Positions 1 to 17,839 of a stretch of DNA of 20,615 nt are shown piece by piece (within the stretch, counting starts at the first letter, position 1; each line of letters begins with the position of its first letter). The notes beneath the pieces are model-generated. The model worked only from the letters and a program-made list of their open reading frames with translations, searched no databases and was not told the origin of the DNA. Source of the stretch: a virus. The position numbers and the translations under genes are program-made. Where the stretch lies: positions 1 through 20,615 of the IMG/VR virus record IMGVR_UViG_3300039171_000021; one strand, written 5' to 3'.

Positions 1-939
1 AGTGTACGCTTCAAATAATTCTGTCCAGTTAACTGTGCCAACACTTTGATTATGGATTATTTGTGCTTGGTTTCCTTGTACAAACAATCCGTAATTTTGC
101 CAAGTAGTAGAAATTACTGTTCTGTTATTGCGCGTAATATCAATTGTAGTGTTGGTTTCTATTCCGTTCGAGTTATCTTTAATAGTTCCAGTAGTGGTTG
201 CTGGCGGAGCAGTATCGGCCCATGCTGCTAGTTCAGGTCCACTAAGTCCTAGCTCAATAGTACCGTTGGCTTCGTCGTAGATGCTATTGATAATTTTTTG
301 TACTACTCCTAACTTTTTAACTTTAACAGGTGAAGAAAGATAAATGGGGATACTAAAAGTTAATTGAGCAACGTCGATTTCACTGTCGACTCCTACAGGA
401 ATGCTACGAGAACTAAACACGATTCCTTCTAAGTCTACAACAGTAAGACTGGTCCAGTCAATAAAGTTATCTGTAGTTTGGATCTCAAGACTAGGGTTAA
501 ACAATGCCAATATCTGTTCAAGTATCTGTAGCTTTTGTTCTGTGTTCGACGCCCAGATGTCGGTACTTAATTTTAGTATATACGGACTTGGCATAAGCCT
601 TTCGACTGTGTAGTTTTGTCCTTGTGTGTTAAGGTACTCGTTGTTTGCGCTATCAAATGCACGTTCTCTGACGTTTACTTTGCTAACTAACGTTCTGTCA
701 CTAGTTCTTGTGCGGTCCATTTCAAGGCCAGTAATGTAAACAGCCATCCTGGGTGCGCTAGGAATTTTGTTTTCTGAGTTATCTCTAATTATATTAGCAA
801 CCTGACGAGTTAAGTCTCCGTACATCACAGGTACTTTCTTGAGATTACCGTTTGCATCTTGATGCGAGAAGTTGCTAAGCAGTCGTATTACTTGGGTAAG
901 GTATCGTCGTATTTGTTTATCGTAAAAGAAATCGCTCAT
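1..939 (-). CDS. 15: gp15-like tail sheath stabilizer / tail completion protein, 3' end cut by window
   Basis: The reading frame on the minus strand starts at an ATG (939-937) and stays open for 313 codons to base 1. The N-terminus reads MSDFFYDKQIRRYLTQVIRL, which fits the start of T4 gp15 (a short FFY..RRY opening), and a central stretch PSPYILKLSTDIW with LQILEQILALFNP matches the family's PSP...L.I....Q.VEQILP.F block. In T4, gp15 caps the tail after sheath assembly and binds the neck (gp13/gp14), so lying next to gp14 and gp13 fits. Its ATG overlaps the gp14 stop codon by one base (TAATG), so it is probably translationally coupled in the same late transcript. T4 gp15 is about 270 residues; this one is already longer and still open, so it has an extra C-terminal part rich in Thr, Asn and Ile. 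Assignment comes from family recognition by eye. Confidence 0.8.
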   Translation of the reverse strand, partial: MSDFFYDKQIRRYLTQVIRLLSNFSHQDANGNLKKVPVMYGDLTRQVANIIRDNSENKIPSAPRMAVYITGLEMDRTRTSDRTLVSKVNVRERAFDSANNEYLNTQGQNYTVERLMPSPYILKLSTDIWASNTEQKLQILEQILALFNPSLEIQTTDNFIDWTSLTVVDLEGIVFSSRSIPVGVDSEIDVAQLTFSIPIYLSSPVKVKKLGVVQKIINSIYDEANGTIELGLSGPELAAWADTAPPATTTGTIKDNSNGIETNTTIDITRNNRTVISTTWQNYGLFVQGNQAQIIHNQSVGTVNWTELFEAYT

Positions 940-2195
940 TAATTATCAGCCCTTGGTCGTAACGCTGTTGACAAGCTCTGCTTCTCTGGGAATGACTCGC
1001 CTGCTACTGTTGTTGTATTGTTGTTATTGATAAACGTGCCTTGTTGCGTTTTTCTGTCACTTGTATTAGTAAGTGTCATTCTAACGTCGTCGTACATTTT
1101 AGTCCATCTATCTCCAGTATACTGGAACATCCTGTTAGGTTTAAAGTCTGTTCTTAAGAAGTAGTCACCTTTAAGGTTGTTTTCAGGAAACTGTATACCA
1201 ATACCAAACGCTTCGCCATTGGGCGCGTTATCGTCGGTAATTAAATACCCTTCGTAACCCAGTCTGTCTGGTTTTCCGAACACGCCGTTTGCTGTTGTTA
1301 TTAACCCAGCATCTATTCCTAAAGCGTCTATGGTTCGTAGTTCGACACTACCGTCTTCATTTAGTGCAACAGTATAAAAATGAGAAACGTCGTAGCCGCT
1401 TTGTGCTGCATCTGCTTCTGCTTCCGCAATAACACCTCGATTAATCTGCATCTCTCGTTCGTAGGTGCTTAGTAGATCACGTAATGTATTGTCTACATAT
1501 TCTTTCCAAAAGTCTGTATCTGTAGGAAGGGTGTCGGATGTTTCTACTATAACTTCATAGAGCACGCCCTTGTACTTTACTACTTGTCCTACTTGGTACG
1601 TTTTGGTAGGATCGTAATCGCCTTCGTATATGTCGTCGTTTTCCGGAGTATCAAGAATGTCAGCAAATTCTTGAGTGTCTGTTAACTGCTTTAATTTAAG
1701 TCTGTATAAGTGTGGATACCAGGTAGGAGTAAACCCTTCGGCTGCCCGGTTGACATCTTCAACTACGTAAAATCTTTTAAGTGCAGTAGCATAGTCGTTA
1801 GCAGCGTACTCGTCGGCAAGATGCGGAAGCTCAATAACATCTCCACTCATTATTTTTCGACCAACAGTTTTAACTGAACTTGTTATGTGTACAGTTAGGA
1901 AGATTGTATCGTTGCTTAGAAATAGTCCAAACTGTGAGAGGTCAAAGTCGATGTCTTGTACATTATAAATTCCTCGTACACGATATATATCGTTGTCGTA
2001 TTTTCTATCTCGGTTTTCCAAGAACAATAGATCTTGTATTTGTGTTTGGTCCTTAACAACCGTTCCGTCGTCGGTACCTAAGTACTTATGGATCAAGACG
2101 TCCGTTCCGCCTATAGTGAACTGTTCGAGTATTATACGATCTAAAAAATAATAATCGTTTCCTCTGGTTGGCCGGTATAAACTTAATCTTGGAAT
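939..2195 (-). CDS. 14: gp14-like neck protein, predicted ATT start
   Basis: This 418-residue frame ends at the TAA overlapping gp15. The core (NVQDIDFDLSQFGLFL, then GRKIMSGDVIELPHL, then LKRFYVVEDVNRAAEG and WYPHLYRLKLK) has the layout of T4-like gp14 neck proteins (GDLIYFP...EINWVEP...), which with gp13 form the collar that seals the packaged head and joins the tail. The first ATG/GTG/TTG-type codon is a TTG at 2096, but 33 codons of protein-like sequence precede it in frame (PRLSLYRPTRGNDYYFLDRI and onward) up to an ATT at 2195-2193. That ATT sits 7 bases after a perfect AGGAG (2207-2203), downstream of an exact late promoter. A stop codon lies in frame just upstream, and no ATG, GTG or TTG is available between. 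I therefore place the start at ATT; a base error turning ATG into ATT is the main alternative. T4 gp14 is about 256 residues, so this is a long version. Confidence 0.8.
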   Translation of the reverse strand: MPRLSLYRPTRGNDYYFLDRIILEQFTIGGTDVLIHKYLGTDDGTVVKDQTQIQDLLFLENRDRKYDNDIYRVRGIYNVQDIDFDLSQFGLFLSNDTIFLTVHITSSVKTVGRKIMSGDVIELPHLADEYAANDYATALKRFYVVEDVNRAAEGFTPTWYPHLYRLKLKQLTDTQEFADILDTPENDDIYEGDYDPTKTYQVGQVVKYKGVLYEVIVETSDTLPTDTDFWKEYVDNTLRDLLSTYEREMQINRGVIAEAEADAAQSGYDVSHFYTVALNEDGSVELRTIDALGIDAGLITTANGVFGKPDRLGYEGYLITDDNAPNGEAFGIGIQFPENNLKGDYFLRTDFKPNRMFQYTGDRWTKMYDDVRMTLTNTSDRKTQQGTFINNNNTTTVAGESFPEKQSLSTALRPRADN

Positions 2196-2219
2196 TGTCC
2201 TTCTCCTTAATAGTTATTG

Positions 2220-2227
2220 TATTTATA
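2220..2227 (-). promoter_or_regulatory. late promoter for gp14-gp15 (exact TATAAATA)
   Basis: Read on the minus strand this is TATAAATA, the exact T4 late promoter consensus recognised by the gp55 sigma factor. By T4 spacing (element at about -13 to -6) transcription would begin near 2214, followed by AGGAG at 2207-2203 and the gp14 start. Confidence 0.8.
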
Positions 2228-2234
2228 ATAAATA
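2227..2234 (+). promoter_or_regulatory. late promoter for gp13 (AATAAATA)
   Basis: One mismatch to TATAAATA. Predicted start of transcription is near 2240, giving a leader of about 12 bases that holds only the Shine-Dalgarno GGAG before the ATG at 2252. It shares base 2227 with the opposing promoter. Confidence 0.7.
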
Positions 2235-2251
2235 CAGTATGGAGAACTTCA

Positions 2252-3034
2252 ATGACTGATGCATCAATACAAGAACAACTAGCAACTCAAAAACAAGAGG
2301 TGTTCGATTATGTCAATGCCTTTTTAGGTGGCGGTATGGTTGACGTAGAACTAGACCCTATACATTATGAAATTGCTCTTACGAAGGCGTTAACGCGATT
2401 TAGACAGCGATCTGATAATGCAGTGGAAGAATCTTATCTCTTTCTTCCGTTAGTTACAGATCAAAACGAATATACATTACCCAAAGAGGTTATTGAAGTC
2501 CGTAAGATTTATCGAGCAGGTGTTGGCTCAAGAATGGGAGGTGGCGGCGGAGGCCAAACATTTGAACCGTTTAACCTTGCATATACTAACACCTACTTAC
2601 TAAGCGGCTCGTCGCAGATGGGCGGTCTTGCTACGTATGACTTCTTTGCACAACACCAAGAACTTGTAGGCAGAATGTTTGGCAGCTTTATAGAATTTAC
2701 GTGGAACTCTACTACTAAGAAACTATTAATACTTCAACGTCCGCGTAGTGGCACAGAAGAAGTGCTAATAGAAGCATATAACTATCGGCCAGATAGTCAA
2801 CTATTAGAAGACTATCTGGCCAAGCAGTGGATTAAAGACTACACTCTTGCATCGTGTAAGTATATGTTAGGAGAAGCACGTAGCAAATTTGCTACTATTG
2901 CAGGTCCACAAGGCGGCACCTCACTTAATGGCGATAGCCTAAAAGCCGAAGCACAGGCCGAAATGGAAAAACTTGAAATAGAAGTAATACAGCAAGTAAG
3001 CGGCGGTGTGGGCTATGGCTTCACGATCGGTTAG
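2252..3034 (+). CDS. 13: gp13-like neck protein
   Basis: A 260-residue protein beginning MTDASIQEQLATQ. The N-terminal half has the gp13 opening, a helix followed by VDVELDPIHYEIALTKALTRF and then YTLPKEVIEVRKIYR. The C-terminus has GPQGGTSLNGDSLKAEAQAE followed by E..IEV and ending FTIG, very like the T4 gp13 tail with its GG...LNG...A..EI..LE and final FIG. In T4, gp13 and gp14 form the neck that closes the filled head. The ATG at 2252 follows GGAG at 2241-2244 with 7 bases between, and a late promoter lies just upstream. An upstream TTG in the same frame (2168) would add a hydrophobic stretch, but that is read through the divergent promoter and is not credible. A glycine run (near residues 95-100) interrupts the middle. 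Confidence 0.85.
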   Translation: MTDASIQEQLATQKQEVFDYVNAFLGGGMVDVELDPIHYEIALTKALTRFRQRSDNAVEESYLFLPLVTDQNEYTLPKEVIEVRKIYRAGVGSRMGGGGGGQTFEPFNLAYTNTYLLSGSSQMGGLATYDFFAQHQELVGRMFGSFIEFTWNSTTKKLLILQRPRSGTEEVLIEAYNYRPDSQLLEDYLAKQWIKDYTLASCKYMLGEARSKFATIAGPQGGTSLNGDSLKAEAQAEMEKLEIEVIQQVSGGVGYGFTIG

Positions 3035-3050
3035 ATTCCTTATTGGATAA

Positions 3051-3058
3051 GATAAATA
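3051..3058 (+). promoter_or_regulatory. late promoter (GATAAATA) abutting the HNH endonuclease start
   Basis: GATAAATA is the commonest late-element form in this window. By T4 spacing transcription would begin at 3064, exactly the A of the ATG, predicting a leaderless mRNA. No good Shine-Dalgarno lies between. Confidence 0.65.
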
Positions 3059-3063
3059 AGAGT

Positions 3064-3876
3064 ATGAAAACTACTCTTATTGAAATTATTGAAAACGACG
3101 CAAGTTATAATAAATCCGCAACTAGGTATCTGTATAAACAGCATCCTGAGCTATGGCAGCGGATTCTAACAGCAACAAATTTTCTGCCTGGAACCGCTAA
3201 AGCTAAACAACGAGTATGGCACGTATTGAATGACGTGTATGAACGTCCTGTGTGTCCTGTTACAGGAGAACACGTTAAGTGGTGGGAGAACAGGTATTTA
3301 GAAACTATTAGTCGTTCAGCTAAATCAACCTTGATGGCAAGACAAGGAAAGTTCAACAATCAATCACCTAAGTCAAGAGCAAGACGTAAAAAGACACTAA
3401 GAGACGGTTTTTCTACTGGGCGTATCAAGCCTAAACAGTGGACACCTAAAGAAGCTGCCGCTAGGTACGAAAAGATACGTGCTGCTACACAAGAGAAGTA
3501 CGGGGTTCATTCTACACTGCTAATCCTAGAAGTAAGAGAAAAACAATATCAATCAAAGGTTGATAAAGGAATCATAACAGCTAGAGAGGATCGCACTGCT
3601 CGTCAGTTATATTACGACGCTGTAACACGTCTTACTAAGAAGAGCTGGGCAGAGCACTTTGATAAAATAAATCCTAACAGACTAAACAGAAGCGAATGGG
3701 ACTTGGATCATAATTATAGTATTCAAGCAGGATTCCGCAACGGGATTCCGCCGTATGTTATAGGACATTGGACTAACTTGCGTATGATGATTCCAGCAGA
3801 GAACTATAGTAAAGGCATGAAGTGTCACAAAACAAAGAAGCAACTATTTGAAGATGTATTTGAGTCGATAGGCTAA
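3064..3876 (+). CDS. HNH endonuclease, probable free-standing homing endonuclease
   Basis: A 270-residue basic protein. Near the C-terminus WDLDHNYSIQAGF (W212, D215, H216) followed by IPPYVIGHWTNLRMMIPAEN and NYSKG is the typical HNH nuclease core of phage-encoded endonucleases, with LDH as the first metal/catalytic histidine motif and the N-rich stretch as the second. The N-terminal part (NFLPGTAKAKQRVWHVLNDV then RPVCPVTGEHVKW) resembles the DNA-binding or zinc-ribbon front end of such enzymes, although only one cysteine is present in that loop. The role would be to cut related phage genomes and promote its own inheritance. I start it at ATG 3064 rather than TTG 3043, because the TTG version would be translated across the late promoter. 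It lies between gp13 and the kinase, outside any intron I can see. Confidence 0.8.
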   Translation: MKTTLIEIIENDASYNKSATRYLYKQHPELWQRILTATNFLPGTAKAKQRVWHVLNDVYERPVCPVTGEHVKWWENRYLETISRSAKSTLMARQGKFNNQSPKSRARRKKTLRDGFSTGRIKPKQWTPKEAAARYEKIRAATQEKYGVHSTLLILEVREKQYQSKVDKGIITAREDRTARQLYYDAVTRLTKKSWAEHFDKINPNRLNRSEWDLDHNYSIQAGFRNGIPPYVIGHWTNLRMMIPAENYSKGMKCHKTKKQLFEDVFESIG

Positions 3877-4914: not shown

Positions 4915-7900
4915 ATGGCACTAACCTCACCAGGTGTAGAAGTTAATGTAATTGACGAATCGTTCTACACGCCAGCAGCACCGGGAACTGTCCCAATGAT
5001 TTTTGTTGCTTCTGCGCAGAACAAAACAAACGGCAGTGGAACTGGTATTGCACCAGGAACTCTAGCAGCTAACGCAGGTAAACCTTACTTGCTAACATCT
5101 CAGCGTGAACTTGTAGATACATTTGGTGACCCAGTGTTCTATACAGACGCAAATAACAACCCGATTAATGGCAGCGAGCTAAACGAATACGGCTTGCAGG
5201 CAGCATATTCTTTGCTAGGAGTTAGCAGCAGAGCGTATATTACTCGAGCAGACATTGACTTAACTGCACTACAACCGCAAGCCGAAGAGCCCGGAGCAAA
5301 TCCTGACAACGGCACTAACTGGCTAGACACGCAGATAACTCGTTGGGGGATCTTCGAGTGGAACAGCGAGCCGAGCAACGTGCCGGGCGGACAAACATTT
5401 ACTATACAAACTCCAATTGTAATCACTGACGAAACTAACCTAGTTGGTAATGACCCAACGGGCGCACCAAAAAGCAGTGTAGGTGCAATTGGACAATATG
5501 CTGTTCGAGCTACTACTACTAGAGTAATGTATTTCTATAAGAACGCTAACGGTACTTGGGTACAAGTAGGAAACACTGCTTGGATGAAAAGTATTCCGTT
5601 TATCTCTGGCGAATCAATTAATAGTCAGACACTAGGTAGCGACACCGATACTATGCAGATGCAGTTCGGTGTATCGGGCCCTGTAGTAATACTTACTGAA
5701 ATAAATGCCGGTAGCGTACAAGACCACGTAGATTTGATAAACGATCCGACTGATGGATTTGCACAATACGGAGTAACTGCTACTCTTACTAATAACCGTA
5801 TTGTTATGTACAACGACGGCACAACAGCTGATTCAGTGGCACTTTCGGGTACATTAAATTCTACCACTAAGTTAAATCTTCTGTCAGGCACATACAGAGC
5901 ACCTGCAACGCAGATCAGTGCTCACACAAATGTTCCGAGATTTAAGACCAATGATAACAACCGTCCTACAGGTAGTGTGTGGATTAAAACAACCGAGCCA
6001 AACCTAGGATCGCGTTGGAGATACTTCCGTTGGAACAGCGATGTAAACTTGTTTACTGCAATTGACGCACCGTTATACGAAACTGCTGCACAAGCAATGT
6101 ATTCCTTAGATCGCGCAGGTGGCGGACTAAATCTTGCAGGTGGCGAAACATTTGTTCGTTATAATTCAGAAGCAAGAGTTCCTGCACAAGCAGATTTTAG
6201 AATTTATAGTAGAAGCACTATTGGACCAACTACTATAGTTAGCGCTCCGATCACAGTTTCAATGAACCTTGGCAGCACAGCTCTTCTTGTTACTATTTAC
6301 GAAACACAAGTAGGCCAGCAGGCTATATCAGCAGGTCAGACAGTAAGTGTGCCAGTTACAGGTACATCGTCTGATGACGCAGATGTTATTGCCGGGGCAA
6401 TCAACGACGCAGGGTTTATGCATGTTGTTGCTAGTGTTGATAACCAAGACAGAGTAGTTATTACTCACACCCAGGGCGGCGACATCCGATTTGACGATAC
6501 CGACGGCTTAATGGGCGACATTGGGTTTACTACAGTTGGCGTTTCGCCAACTAAGAACCTATATGCTTCTCAGGGCGACAATATAGGTGATTTAATTGCA
6601 AGCAATTGGATAGAAGCTGATGTTATTGCTCAACAAGATCCGCCACAGAATCTAGCATCAGACGGTGAGCTTTGGTTTAACAGTATTGTTGACGAAGCTG
6701 ACATTATGGTACACGACGGTAATACTTGGGTCGGTTACAGAAACGAATTTGGAACTACTAATATCACAGGTCCTATTGTTAGCGCAAGCGAACCAACTCT
6801 ACAATCAGATGGAGTTACTCCGCTAGTTGAAGGCGACCTTTGGATAGATACTTCAGATATCGAAAATTACCCAACTATCTATCGTTACAATGAGCTAGCT
6901 AAACGATTCTCTCTAGTAGACAAGAGTGACCAAACAACAGACAACGGTGTATTGTTTGCTGATGCACGTTGGAATACAAGCGGAATGAATTCAGACATAG
7001 CTGGTACTATACAGGCACTTCTTAGCAGTGACCATTTAGATCCAGATGCACCTGATCCTGCACTATACCCGCGTGGTATGTTGTTATTCAACCTGCGCAG
7101 AAGCGGATTCAATGTTAAGAGATTTGAACGTAACTATATTAACGTAAATGACGATAACATTCGAGCAGCCGACGAAGCAATGGCTGATTATTACCCACAT
7201 CGTTGGGTTACAGAATCACGTAACCAAGCAGACGGTTCAGGTAGCTTTGGGTCGGCAGCTCAGCGGGTTGTTGTTGTTCAGGCATTGCAAGCAATGGTTA
7301 ACAGTAATGACGCTATACGCGATGACGAATCGCGATTGTTTAACGTTATGGCAACTCCAAACTATCCTGAGCTAATTGGCGAAATGGTTACGCTAAACTA
7401 CGACAGGGGTCTAAGTGCGTTTGTTGTTGGCGATAGTCCAATGACACTAACTCCAGATGCAACTTCACTTAATGAGTGGGGACAAAACGTGCGTCTTGCA
7501 GTTGAAGATAACAAAAACGGACTAGTTAGCTTTGACGAGTACCTAGGAGTGTATTACCCAGCAGGCTTTACTAGTGACAACGCAGGTAACAACATTGTTG
7601 TACCGCCAAGTCACATGGCACTACGAACTATTGCTCTTAGTGACCAAGTAAGCTACCCTTGGTTTGCCCCAGCTGGTACAAGACGCGGTGGTGTTACTAA
7701 CGCAACGTCGTCTGGCTACATAACTAGCGAAGGTGAATTTGTAAGTGTGTCGCTGAACGAAGGACAACGAAATACTCTGTACAGCAATAGTATTAACCCG
7801 ATTACGTTCCTAAACGGTGCAGGGCTTGTTGTATTTGGTCAGAAGACTAGAGCAAGAAACGCTAGCGCATTAGACCGCATCAACGTAGCACGTCTTGTTA

Positions 7901-8190
7901 TATACTTGCGTTCGCAGTTGAATAGACTAGCAAAGCCTTACTTGTTTGAACCTAACGATAAGATTACAAGAGACGAAATTAAAGGCGCAGTTGAGAGCTT
8001 GATGCTAGAACTAGTAGGGCAACGAGCATTGTACGATTATATTGTAGTGTGTGACGAATCAAACAACACTCCTGCAAGAATCGACCGTAACGAACTCTAC
8101 GTCGACGTAGCTATTGAACCTGTTAAAGCAATTGAGTTTATCTACATACCGTTGAGACTTAAGAACACAGGAGAGATTGCAGGTCTATAA
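4915..8190 (+). CDS. 18: tail sheath protein gp18, enlarged
   Basis: A 1091-residue contractile sheath subunit. The N-terminus (MALTSPGVEVNVIDESFYTP) is the standard T4-like sheath opening with its SPGVEV motif. The conserved C-terminal core is clear: FNVMATPNYPELI, VYYPAGFT, VPPSHMALRTIA, PWFAPAGTRRG (about residue 917), INPITFLNGAGLVVFGQKT and the final VAIEPVKAIEFIYIPLRL. T4 gp18 is 659 residues, so over 400 residues are extra, lying between the two core parts (roughly residues 110-740). They include two similar segments (near residues 267 and 486), each an IN-containing helix followed by V.A....(N/D)RIV(M/I) strands, and three GxLW/GSVW motifs (near 352, 583 and 639) of the kind seen in exposed phage tail domains. 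The extra part probably decorates the tail surface. A strong AGGAG precedes the ATG. Confidence 0.93.
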   Translation: MALTSPGVEVNVIDESFYTPAAPGTVPMIFVASAQNKTNGSGTGIAPGTLAANAGKPYLLTSQRELVDTFGDPVFYTDANNNPINGSELNEYGLQAAYSLLGVSSRAYITRADIDLTALQPQAEEPGANPDNGTNWLDTQITRWGIFEWNSEPSNVPGGQTFTIQTPIVITDETNLVGNDPTGAPKSSVGAIGQYAVRATTTRVMYFYKNANGTWVQVGNTAWMKSIPFISGESINSQTLGSDTDTMQMQFGVSGPVVILTEINAGSVQDHVDLINDPTDGFAQYGVTATLTNNRIVMYNDGTTADSVALSGTLNSTTKLNLLSGTYRAPATQISAHTNVPRFKTNDNNRPTGSVWIKTTEPNLGSRWRYFRWNSDVNLFTAIDAPLYETAAQAMYSLDRAGGGLNLAGGETFVRYNSEARVPAQADFRIYSRSTIGPTTIVSAPITVSMNLGSTALLVTIYETQVGQQAISAGQTVSVPVTGTSSDDADVIAGAINDAGFMHVVASVDNQDRVVITHTQGGDIRFDDTDGLMGDIGFTTVGVSPTKNLYASQGDNIGDLIASNWIEADVIAQQDPPQNLASDGELWFNSIVDEADIMVHDGNTWVGYRNEFGTTNITGPIVSASEPTLQSDGVTPLVEGDLWIDTSDIENYPTIYRYNELAKRFSLVDKSDQTTDNGVLFADARWNTSGMNSDIAGTIQALLSSDHLDPDAPDPALYPRGMLLFNLRRSGFNVKRFERNYINVNDDNIRAADEAMADYYPHRWVTESRNQADGSGSFGSAAQRVVVVQALQAMVNSNDAIRDDESRLFNVMATPNYPELIGEMVTLNYDRGLSAFVVGDSPMTLTPDATSLNEWGQNVRLAVEDNKNGLVSFDEYLGVYYPAGFTSDNAGNNIVVPPSHMALRTIALSDQVSYPWFAPAGTRRGGVTNATSSGYITSEGEFVSVSLNEGQRNTLYSNSINPITFLNGAGLVVFGQKTRARNASALDRINVARLVIYLRSQLNRLAKPYLFEPNDKITRDEIKGAVESLMLELVGQRALYDYIVVCDESNNTPARIDRNELYVDVAIEPVKAIEFIYIPLRLKNTGEIAGL

Positions 8191-8227: not shown

Positions 8228-8235
8228 GATAAATA
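8228..8235 (+). promoter_or_regulatory. late promoter for the tail tube gene (GATAAATA)
   Basis: Immediately downstream of the gp18 terminator. Predicted start of transcription near 8241, leaving a leader of about 17 bases with AGGAGAA before the gp19 ATG. Confidence 0.8.
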
Positions 8236-8966: not shown

Positions 8967-8974
8967 TATAAATA
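8967..8974 (+). promoter_or_regulatory. exact late promoter (TATAAATA) giving a leaderless start
   Basis: An exact T4 late consensus. By T4 spacing transcription starts at 8980, the A of the ATG of the next gene. There is no Shine-Dalgarno between the terminator hairpin and the ATG. Confidence 0.8.
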
Positions 8975-13229: not shown

Positions 13230-14807
13230 ATGTCAAAATCATTAGACGGAGTCTTAACTAAAAAAGCCAATCAGAAAGAAACATTTACTGAAGGGCAAAT
13301 TAGCGAACTGCTTAGCTGTACGGATCCCGAGCTCGGGTATCTATACTTTGCCAAGAACTTTGCCTACATTCAGCATCCTGTAAGAGGCAAGTTGCTGTTT
13401 GAGCCATACGAATATCAAGAACGACTAATGGCAAGTTATCACAACTATCGCTTTAACATCAACATGCTGCCGCGGCAAACGGGCAAGACTACGTGTGCTG
13501 CTGTTTACTTGGCGTGGTACGCTATGTTCCACCCTGACCAAACTGTGCTAATTGCTGCCCACAAGTACACTGGTGCACAAGAGATTATGCAGCGCATTCG
13601 CTACATATACGAACTGTGTCCGGATCATATACGTGCTGGTGTTATCAACTATAACAAAGGTAGCATAGAATTTGAAAACGGAAGTCGCATAGTGAGCTCG
13701 ACTACGACAGGTAACACTGGACGTGGTATGGCTATCTCGCTTCTATACTGTGACGAATTTGCGTTTGTGCAGCCCGGCATTGCAGAAGAATTCTGGACTT
13801 CAATATCTCCTACACTGGCAACAGGTGGTAGTGCTATCATTACAAGCACACCAAACTCAGACGAAGACACCTTTGCTACAATATGGAAAGATGCTGAAAA
13901 GAAGTTTGACGAACACGGTAACGAGCAAACACTGGGCATTAACGGATTTCACTCGTTTACTATTGCTTGGGACGAACATCCGGACAGAGACGAAGCATGG
14001 CGGGTTGCTGAAACAGGTCGTATTGGTGAAGAGCGGTTCCGACGTGAATACGGTTGCGAATTTCTCGTGTTTGATGAGACTCTGATTAACTCAATCAAAC
14101 TATCAACTATGGAGGGGAGCACCCCTATCCTTAATATGGGACAAACTCGCTGGTACAAGAAGCCACAGGCAGGTTATACCTACGCTGTTGCGCTCGACCC
14201 TAGTATGGGCACAGGGGGCAACAACGCCGCAATTCAAGTAATAGAATTACCGACATACGTACAAGTGGCCGAATGGCAACATAACATGACTTCAATACCT
14301 GGACAGATCCGAGTACTCAAAGATATATGTACATACATACAAGAAACAATACAATCACCTAACAGTATATACTGGAGTCTAGAGAACAACAGCATTGGAG
14401 AAGCAGCACTGATTGTAGTCCAGGACGTAGGGGAAGAAAATATCCCAGGCCTGTTCATATCGGAGCCAATGCGCAAAGGACATATAAGAAAGTTCCGCAA
14501 AGGGTTTAACACAACCCACGGCGCTAAAATAACAGCGTGCAGTAGGTTAAAAACAATGGTAGAAAACGACAAATTGATAATACACTCTAAACCGTTAATA
14601 TCAGAGTTTAAAGGATATATTGCCACCGGCTCAAGTTTTCAGGCTAAACAGGGATCTGCAGACGATCTCATTTCTGGAATCTTACTAACTATCAGGATGA
14701 TGTCAGTACTTAAAGACTGGGATCCAAAGATATATAACACATTCACTCAGGCAGAGGACAACGACTACGACCCCCCACTGCCGATTTTTATGAGCAGCAA
14801 CGGATAA
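13230..14807 (+). CDS. 17: large terminase subunit gp17 (packaging ATPase and nuclease)
   Basis: A 525-residue protein with both terminase domains. ATPase: PRQTGKTT (Walker A, residues 81-88), LLYCDEFAF (Walker B, D175 and catalytic E176) and TSTPN (coupling motif, 205-209). Nuclease (RNase H-like): D323 in ALDPSMGTGG, E385 in WSLENNS and D478/D479 in SADDLISG, the usual three-acid metal site. It drives DNA into the prohead and cuts the concatemer. The start is uncertain: a TTG at 13215 overlaps the preceding hairpin, while ATG 13230 is in frame 15 bases later; I prefer the ATG. No strong Shine-Dalgarno and no late promoter precede it, which may keep its level low. Length is somewhat below T4 gp17 (610). 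Confidence 0.93.
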   Translation: MSKSLDGVLTKKANQKETFTEGQISELLSCTDPELGYLYFAKNFAYIQHPVRGKLLFEPYEYQERLMASYHNYRFNINMLPRQTGKTTCAAVYLAWYAMFHPDQTVLIAAHKYTGAQEIMQRIRYIYELCPDHIRAGVINYNKGSIEFENGSRIVSSTTTGNTGRGMAISLLYCDEFAFVQPGIAEEFWTSISPTLATGGSAIITSTPNSDEDTFATIWKDAEKKFDEHGNEQTLGINGFHSFTIAWDEHPDRDEAWRVAETGRIGEERFRREYGCEFLVFDETLINSIKLSTMEGSTPILNMGQTRWYKKPQAGYTYAVALDPSMGTGGNNAAIQVIELPTYVQVAEWQHNMTSIPGQIRVLKDICTYIQETIQSPNSIYWSLENNSIGEAALIVVQDVGEENIPGLFISEPMRKGHIRKFRKGFNTTHGAKITACSRLKTMVENDKLIIHSKPLISEFKGYIATGSSFQAKQGSADDLISGILLTIRMMSVLKDWDPKIYNTFTQAEDNDYDPPLPIFMSSNG

Positions 14808-14810
14808 ATA
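14803..14810 (+). promoter_or_regulatory. late promoter (GATAAATA) overlapping the gp17 stop codon
   Basis: The TAA of gp17 is part of the element. Its last base lies 5 bases before the next ATG (14815), so the predicted transcript is leaderless within one base. There is no Shine-Dalgarno. Confidence 0.7.
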
Positions 14811-16691: not shown

Positions 16692-16720
16692 TTGACAGGA
16701 TAAATAAACTTGTGTAGTAT
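16692..16720 (+). promoter_or_regulatory. sigma70 promoter for gp32
   Basis: TTGACA (16692-16697), a 17-base spacer and TAGTAT (16715-16720, one mismatch to TATAAT). Transcription would begin near 16727, giving an A-rich leader of about 84 bases. A late element lies inside the spacer. Confidence 0.85.
16699..16706 (+). promoter_or_regulatory. late promoter nested in the gp32 sigma70 spacer (GATAAATA)
   Basis: The element falls between the -35 and -10 hexamers, so the same 30 bases could serve host polymerase early and the gp55-type polymerase late (start near 16712). The two cannot be used at once. Confidence 0.65.
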
Positions 16721-16810: not shown

Positions 16811-17839
16811 ATGGCTACACTAGCGGAAATTCGCGCAAAACTCAAAGATCAAGAAGCTAACAAAGGCGGTGGCAATCGCGCACCGGGTGACAACGCAATC
16901 TATCCATTCTGGAATATTAAAGAAGGCGAAAGCACAACACTCCGATTCTTACCTGATGGTAATACCGAAAACACTTTCTTCTGGGCAGAACGCCTTATGA
17001 TCAAACTGCCATTCGCAGGGATCAAAGGTCAAACTGATTCACGCCCGGTAACAGTAGCAGTACCTTGTATGGAGATGTATGGCAAAAATTGCCCAGTACT
17101 TGCAGAAGTACGTGGTTGGTTCAAAGACCCTGCACTCGAAGACATGGGTCGCAAGTACTGGAAAAAGCGCTCTTATATTTTCCAAGGCTTCGTGACAGAC
17201 ACTCCCCTTACTGAAGACACAACTCCTGAGAACCCGATTCGACGGTTTATCATTGGTCCGCAGATCTTCCAAATCATTAAACAGGCTCTTATGGATCCTG
17301 ATATGGAAGAACTACCGACTGACTACACAGCCGGTGTTGACTTCCGTCTTAACAAGACTAGCAAAGGCGGCTATGCTGATTATTCTTCATCTAACTGGGC
17401 AAGACGTGATCGCCCACTAAGTGATGCAGAGCAAAAAGCAGTTGACGAGCACGGCTTGTTTAACATGAGCGACTTCTTACCAAAAGAACCAGACGACACT
17501 GCGGTCCAAGTGATCAAAGAAATGTTTGAAGCAAGTGTTGACGGCGAAGCATACGACGCAGATCGTTGGAGTAATTACTTCCGTCCTGCAGGCGTTAGTG
17601 CTAACACTGGTGATCCCAACAAAGGCACCGGCGGCGCAACTAAGCCAGCAGCTAACGTTTCTAAGCCAGCAGCTAATGTTTCTAAGCCAGCAGCAAAGGC
17701 TGAAAGTACACTAGCTGAAGACGAAGCAACGTTGCCGTGGAATGATGATGCCAAAGCAGAAAAGATAGAGACAAAATCTGAAGGTGGCGGTAGCGCCCAA
17801 GATATTCTGTCAATGATCCGCTCACGTCAGAATCAGTAA
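16811..17839 (+). CDS. 32: single-stranded DNA-binding protein gp32
   Basis: A 342-residue SSB. It has a basic N-terminal segment (LAEIRAKLKDQEANKGGG), a core with YPFWNIKEGESTTLRFLPDG, then VPCMEMYGKNCPVL and YWKKRSYIFQGFV, and an acidic C-terminal tail (LPWNDDAKAEK onward) as in T4 gp32, where it contacts replication and recombination partners. T4 gp32 binds zinc through one His and three Cys; here only C86 and C94 are in the matching region, the third Cys position is Leu97 and no His is near, so the zinc site looks lost. A lysine/proline/alanine repeat links core and tail. It carries early and late promoters and a full AGGAGG. The neighbouring UvsX and UvsY are its known partners in T4 recombination. 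Confidence 0.9.
   Translation: MATLAEIRAKLKDQEANKGGGNRAPGDNAIYPFWNIKEGESTTLRFLPDGNTENTFFWAERLMIKLPFAGIKGQTDSRPVTVAVPCMEMYGKNCPVLAEVRGWFKDPALEDMGRKYWKKRSYIFQGFVTDTPLTEDTTPENPIRRFIIGPQIFQIIKQALMDPDMEELPTDYTAGVDFRLNKTSKGGYADYSSSNWARRDRPLSDAEQKAVDEHGLFNMSDFLPKEPDDTAVQVIKEMFEASVDGEAYDADRWSNYFRPAGVSANTGDPNKGTGGATKPAANVSKPAANVSKPAAKAESTLAEDEATLPWNDDAKAEKIETKSEGGGSAQDILSMIRSRQNQ
17642..17698 (+). repeat. 21-bp tandem repeat in gp32, encoding KPAANVS
   Basis: Two full copies (17642-17662, 17663-17683; one base different) and a partial third to 17698, all in frame. They encode a flexible linker between the DNA-binding core and the acidic tail; copy number may vary between relatives. Confidence 0.9.

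Follow-up and report, generated by a model that had tools for sequence, protein, structure and literature searches.

The gap between gene gp13 and its leftward neighbor in an uncultivated giant T4-like phage, represented by a 20-kb fragment (20.6 kb; this whole stretch of analyzed DNA is called the window), contains a 17-bp palindrome, and the question arises whether this palindrome is a promoter for both directions, a switch between them, or an element of another kind. The features of the locus are as follows.

1-939, minus strand: gp15, tail sheath stabiliser, running off the end of the window (PF16724 T4-gp15_tss, E 2.8e-23; phrog_227)
939-2195, minus strand: virion structural protein in the gp14 position, 418 aa (phrog_11591; placed by its position between gp13 and gp15)
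2193-2195, minus strand: predicted ATT start codon of the gp14-position gene, preceded by the ribosome site AAGGAGAAGG
2219-2235, no strand assigned: 17-bp hyphenated palindrome, predicted fused divergent late promoter (arms 2219-2226 and 2228-2235, center 2227)
2220-2227 (read 2227-2220), minus strand: late promoter octamer TATAAATA, predicted for gp14-gp15, predicted +1 at 2214 (A)
2227-2234, plus strand: late promoter octamer AATAAATA, predicted for gp13, predicted +1 near 2240
2241-2246, plus strand: ribosome binding site GGAGAA of gp13, from the sequence
2252-3034, plus strand: gp13, head-tail adaptor Ad2 (phrog_211, the family of T4 gp13), ATG at 2252

Genes Flanking the Palindrome

A first-pass annotation of this DNA had named gp13, gp14, and gp15 as the genes around the palindrome. 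Family matches back the calls for gp13 (phrog_211) and gp15 (PF16724 and phrog_227). Judged from sequence, however, the name gp14 is positional, i.e., it denotes the gene in the gp14 position, because homology to T4 gp14 was not found: a profile comparison detected no similarity between the two proteins (hhalign probability 0.4%), and T4 gp14 (head closure Hc2) matches phrog_679/460, whereas the window protein matches phrog_11591 only. A PDB sequence search with the gp14-position protein found nothing, and a structure model was too poor (mean pLDDT 51) to provide an identity. The N-terminus read from ATT 2195-2193 aligns with the MP start of relatives, and the stop codon overlaps the ATG of gp15 by one base. 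The first in-frame ATG, GTG, or TTG of this frame is TTG 2096, which lies within the conserved region; scans for ATG/GTG/TTG starts therefore shorten gp14 in such genomes.

Two other genes of the window deserve mention. The one at 3064-3876, adjoining gp13, has a weak match to phrog_5104, resembles by eye an HNH-type homing endonuclease, and possesses its own octamer, in an octamer-ATG context that is also present in the relative L004. The one at 4915-8190 encodes a very long tail sheath protein of 1091 aa.

Structure of the Palindrome

The sequence at 2219-2235 is GTATTTATAATAAATAC, i.e., GTATTTAT-A-ATAAATAC, and base pair 2227 is common to both octamers. On rereading, the sequence and coordinates given in the first-pass annotation, including the sharing of 2227, are exact, but its description of the palindrome as "perfect" needs correction, as a DNA palindrome of odd length cannot be perfect; there are two 8-bp arms around an unpaired center base. 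The base at the predicted plus-strand +1, 2240, is a T, adjoined by the purines A2239 and G2241.

Single octamers are about as frequent in the 20.6 kb as expected by chance (two TATAAATA seen versus 1.5 expected, three AATAAATA versus 1.6). When the 51-bp gap is shuffled, both motifs occur in 0.17% of cases and the shared-base form in five per million, and palindromes with 8-bp arms and a 1-bp center number two in the window versus 0.23 expected. An RNA hairpin or terminator was rejected: although RNA of the plus strand would fold (z -2.2), late transcripts would start outside the fold, and a search of the region for a terminator-like site found none.

Conservation of the Octamer Pair in Relatives

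Relatives were collected by IMG/VR searches with gp13, gp14, and the fused pattern, and the phages Atu_ph07 and Phosso were added. The 177 loci with both genes, among which are the locus of the window itself and some contigs retrieved by more than one search, reduce to 89 distinct gaps. In all 177 loci gp14/gp15 are divergent from gp13, so the contrast drawn earlier with T4, where genes 13, 14, and 15 all run in one direction, stands. The same divergent genes with TAAATA pairs are found in Atu_ph07, cultured on Agrobacterium, and Phosso, cultured on Sinorhizobium. In PA5oct, gp13 is preceded by a gene of the same orientation.

If A, T, or G is permitted at the second base, 87 of the 89 distinct gaps contain a late-type octamer on each strand, the commonest form being GATAAATA; in the other two (L003 and L022) one or both octamers are degenerate. 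This conservation is the strongest evidence against chance, and together with the shuffles it rules out a chance origin of the pair. The spacing between the octamers varies widely: at close range it is -1 (the shared-base form) in 6 gaps, 0 in 2, 1 in 4, 3 in 1, and 4 in 6, and at wider range it is 5 in 42 gaps, 6 in 12, 10-11 in 4, 16-17 in 8, 21 in 1, and 25 in 1. Thus, both octamers are present but unfused, at 0-25 bp, in 81 of the 89 gaps. In L001-L005, the closest relatives of the window, the octamers are likewise separate or one of them is gone. What is conserved is the octamer pair, not its fusion into a palindrome; the idea that relatives with the same gene order would retain the palindromy fails for the strict 17-bp form.

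One might also read the palindrome as the site of a dimeric regulator or as a DNA hairpin, to which the resemblance to promoters would be secondary. Gaps with a spacing of 5 are indeed symmetric beyond the octamers, base -14 being complementary in 38 of 42, five of which have G in place of C on both sides, and the preference for C at -14 is absent from these phages' other late promoters, which rules it out as a general late-promoter feature. However, an arm spacing that ranges from -1 to 25 bp would be intolerable for a dimer site, the first octamer base does not covary, and each arm lies at a promoter-like distance from its own gene; we regard a regulator site or hairpin as very improbable. 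Gaps with 5-bp spacers that carry the -14 symmetry and its paired C-to-G switches include L070, L065, and L033, and the spacers GTAAC and GTTAC are mutual reverse complements, as if inverted. The -14 symmetry could stem from common descent, from near-palindrome repair, or from an extra binding partner. The symmetry of the palindrome itself reflects the presence of one octamer in two inverted copies; it probably does not amount to a separate element.

Probable Identity of the Octamers as Late Promoters

The octamer of T4 late promoters occupies positions -13 to -6 (PMC2988020), and the predicted 5' ends at 2214 (minus strand) and 2240 (plus strand) follow from this rule. Cyanophage late promoters use NATAAATA (PMC2984593). 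Eight of the nine plus-strand NATAAATA sites in the window are upstream of genes: seven lie 4-33 nt before the predicted starts of gp13 and of the genes at 3064, 8258, 8980, 11141, 11687, and 14815, and another, at 16699, precedes the gene at 16811 by about 100 nt. The remaining plus-strand site (19756), like the one other minus-strand site (20212), is inside a gene. Sites outside the gp13-gp14 gap include the following.

3051-3058, plus strand: late octamer GATAAATA, 5 nt before ATG 3064, predicted leaderless
8228-8235, plus strand: late octamer GATAAATA, before the tail tube gene (ATG 8258, with a ribosome site)
8967-8974, plus strand: late octamer TATAAATA, 5 nt before ATG 8980 of a tail-tube-like gene, predicted leaderless
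14803-14810, plus strand: late octamer GATAAATA, 4 nt before ATG 14815, predicted leaderless

In the 330-kb clade contig G021, the heptamer ATAAATA is rarer than permuted heptamers (89 sites versus a mean of 226), and 54 of the 89 sites lie within 60 nt of an ORF starting with ATG. A homolog of the late sigma factor gp55 is encoded in G021 (E 1e-78) and in a second clade contig, G022 (E 1e-82), both detected with phrog_12791, as phrog_234 is too specific for T4. Within the clade it was found in these two contigs, most of the others being fragments, and gp55-type homologs are also present in five cultured jumbo phages (Atu_ph07, Phosso, PA5oct, RaK2, and one Vibrio jumbo phage). None of gp55, gp33, and gp45 was identified within the 20-kb window, a fragment too short to tell whether the phage itself has gp55.

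Taken together, the conserved octamer pair, the location of octamers upstream of genes, and the presence of gp55 in relatives make it highly likely that two divergent late promoters of the T4 type are paired at 2219-2235. The first-pass annotation had predicted divergent late promoters between gp13 and gp14/gp15, and conservation of the pair along with the gene order backs this prediction. After the onset of replication, host RNA polymerase with a gp55-type sigma factor of the phage would recognize NATAAATA on either strand; a rightward start near 2240 would yield the gp13 mRNA, a leftward start near 2214 would yield the gp14-gp15 mRNA, and both directions would presumably fire.

A bidirectional promoter of the host sigma-70 type, in which the fused form creates a TATAAT box, seems extremely unlikely. 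TATAAT is indeed present on one strand in the window and in other fused gaps, and symmetric -10 boxes drive divergent transcription in E. coli (PMC12825309), but the pair is also conserved in the common GATAAATA forms, which lack TATAAT. Only a single 9-of-12 sigma-70-like match, on the minus strand, overlaps the site, and the whole region has four such matches versus 1.9 in shuffles.

Predicted Exclusion Between the Two Polymerases

With the octamers assigned to late promoters, it can be asked what the shared base contributes. The first-pass annotation had proposed a single shared switch for gp13 and gp14/gp15, at which two polymerases could not bind together; the divergent promoter pair in this proposal stands, whereas the shared base as its key feature (6 of 89 gaps) and the term "switch" are not backed. 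Shared-base forms do recur on separate branches (L189, L173, L162, L171/L178, and the window), with at least four changes on the tree, and of the 22 IMG/VR matches to the fused pattern, 18 fall at the gp13-gp14 locus. The many unfused gaps and the absence of the fused form from the nearest relatives argue against a function of the shared base itself, and in E. coli bidirectional promoters exclusion alone alters output only if one direction is strongly active (PMC12825309). A functional fusion, in which mutually exclusive binding would balance gp13 against gp14/gp15, is therefore regarded as quite unlikely.

By the T4 rule, the predicted starts at 2214 and 2240 are 26 bp apart. Given that the melted region of a promoter spans -12 to +2 (PMC7892883), the melted regions of the two promoters at 2219-2235 would not overlap. 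In no relative are the two recognition sites more than about 40 bp apart, and from what is generally known of polymerase footprints, we infer that the footprints would overlap in the window and in every relative. Exclusion would then be general to the locus and not specific to the palindrome, since the footprints would overlap at every spacing seen. The polymerases would thus have to take turns at the gp13-gp14 gap, the shared base being the tight end of a freely drifting spacing.

Predicted Translation Starts of gp14 and Other Late Genes

The distance between the minus-strand octamer and the gp14 start codon is 5 nt in 62 of the 89 gaps and 4 nt in one, and the start codon is ATG in all 63. 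At a distance of 5 nt, the A of this ATG is exactly the expected first transcribed base. The gp14 mRNA is predicted to be leaderless in these 63 gaps, i.e., in most relatives, because the ATG is at or next to the expected +1, although a distance to a start codon cannot prove the position of +1. In 22 other gaps a leader of 21-25 nt that includes a ribosome site precedes gp14, and 20 of these 22 have ATC, ATT, or ATA as the start codon; the two leadered gaps with ATG have a weaker ribosome site (AGGT). The window belongs with the leadered forms, having a 24-nt gap, the ribosome site noted above, and an ATT start. Atu_ph07 and Phosso have 27-28 nt before gp14 and an ATG start, and two other gaps could not be classed. 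Along the tree, gain of a leader coincides with loss of ATG in five of five independent pairs (p 0.06, the minimum possible for five). Because an in-frame ATG also occurs two codons before the start in several of the ATC gaps, the non-ATG reading is most secure for the remaining gaps. On the gp13 side the distance from octamer to start varies, and a ribosome site is always present (GGAG in 87 of 89 gaps).

The two messages therefore probably differ in translation. The gp13 message would combine a strong ribosome site with ATG; the gp14 message would start with a leaderless ATG, as usual in the clade, or carry a short leader and a ribosome site followed by ATT, ATC, or ATA, as in the window. 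Leaderless translation of gp14 and a lower gp14 output would be the expected consequences.

The pattern seems to extend beyond gp14. In G021 an ATG-started ORF of at least 60 codons follows 16 of the 89 ATAAATA sites at 4-5 nt, versus 31 of 4516 sites of 20 permuted control heptamers. At this distance ATG starts number 16, GTG starts 1, and TTG starts 0, which fits a leaderless reading because leaderless translation in both E. coli and Caulobacter shows a strong dependence on AUG (PMC9031893). In five clade contigs taken together, octamer-to-ATG distances of 4-5 nt occur 43 times and distances of 9-10 nt five times. No such excess is seen in T4 (2 versus 2), S-PM2 (2 versus 4), or Syn9 (1 versus 3), and the corresponding counts are 1 and 0 for RaK2, 9 and 6 for PA5oct, 6 and 3 for Atu_ph07, and 0 and 3 for Phosso. 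Pelagibacter phage HTVC008M (NC_020484), unlike the tested cyanophages, has 10 versus 2 and possibly possesses leaderless late genes. G021 (L199-L215, e.g., 303322-303356) carries 16-17 octamers 4-5 nt before an ATG as well as two further divergent octamer pairs; in one of these pairs, each octamer is followed by an ATG after 4 nt. Searches of the open-access literature yielded no account of leaderless late mRNAs of the T4 type.

Clamp loading is constrained in polarity in T4 (PMC2988020). A more far-reaching reading, offered tentatively and as possible rather than probable, is that a sizeable share of the late mRNAs of this clade is leaderless, so that the late promoter also sets the translation start; that gp14 is held below gp13 by weak initiation, either at a leaderless AUG or at AUC, AUU, or AUA replacing AUG after a leader with a strong ribosome site; and that the sliding clamp, through the orientation in which it arrives, could also influence which direction fires. 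The linked pattern, either an ATG at the expected +1 or a leader with a non-AUG start, would predict that widespread environmental giant phages have a class of leaderless late mRNAs and that they can set the ratio of two neck proteins in this way.

Comparison With Known Systems

The proposed promoters resemble the late promoters of T4 (gp55/gp33/gp45) and of cyanophages in the octamer itself, in the expected distance to +1, in their location before structural genes, and in the presence of a gp55 homolog in relatives. In contrast to these known late promoters, they form a divergent pair that serves neck genes, and position -13 is often G; in contrast to T4, S-PM2, and Syn9, many sites of the clade lie 4-5 nt from an ATG.

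In prokaryotic bidirectional promoters (Warman et al., PMC12825309), inverted -10-like elements likewise overlap or abut, and polymerase can bind either way but not both ways at once. Such promoters are known mainly for sigma-70, and the pair described here would place them in the best-understood phage late transcription system, with a phage late-sigma octamer as the recognition element and one base pair as the shared part. The predicted distance between starts is 26 bp here, versus 10, 18, or 23 bp in the promoters of that study, where small variations are allowed. Whereas the bacterial promoters share a -10 element, a single base pair is shared in the window and in five other gap types, and 81 of the 89 gaps have two separate octamers; this natural range of spacings, which extends from fused octamers to a separation of 25 bp, would allow tests of polymerase exclusion.

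With known leaderless mRNAs (PMC9031893), the predicted late messages have in common an AUG at the 5' end, the restriction to AUG, and the absence of a ribosome site. They differ in that leaderless starts are predicted here, from sequence alone, for a whole class of T4-type late genes.
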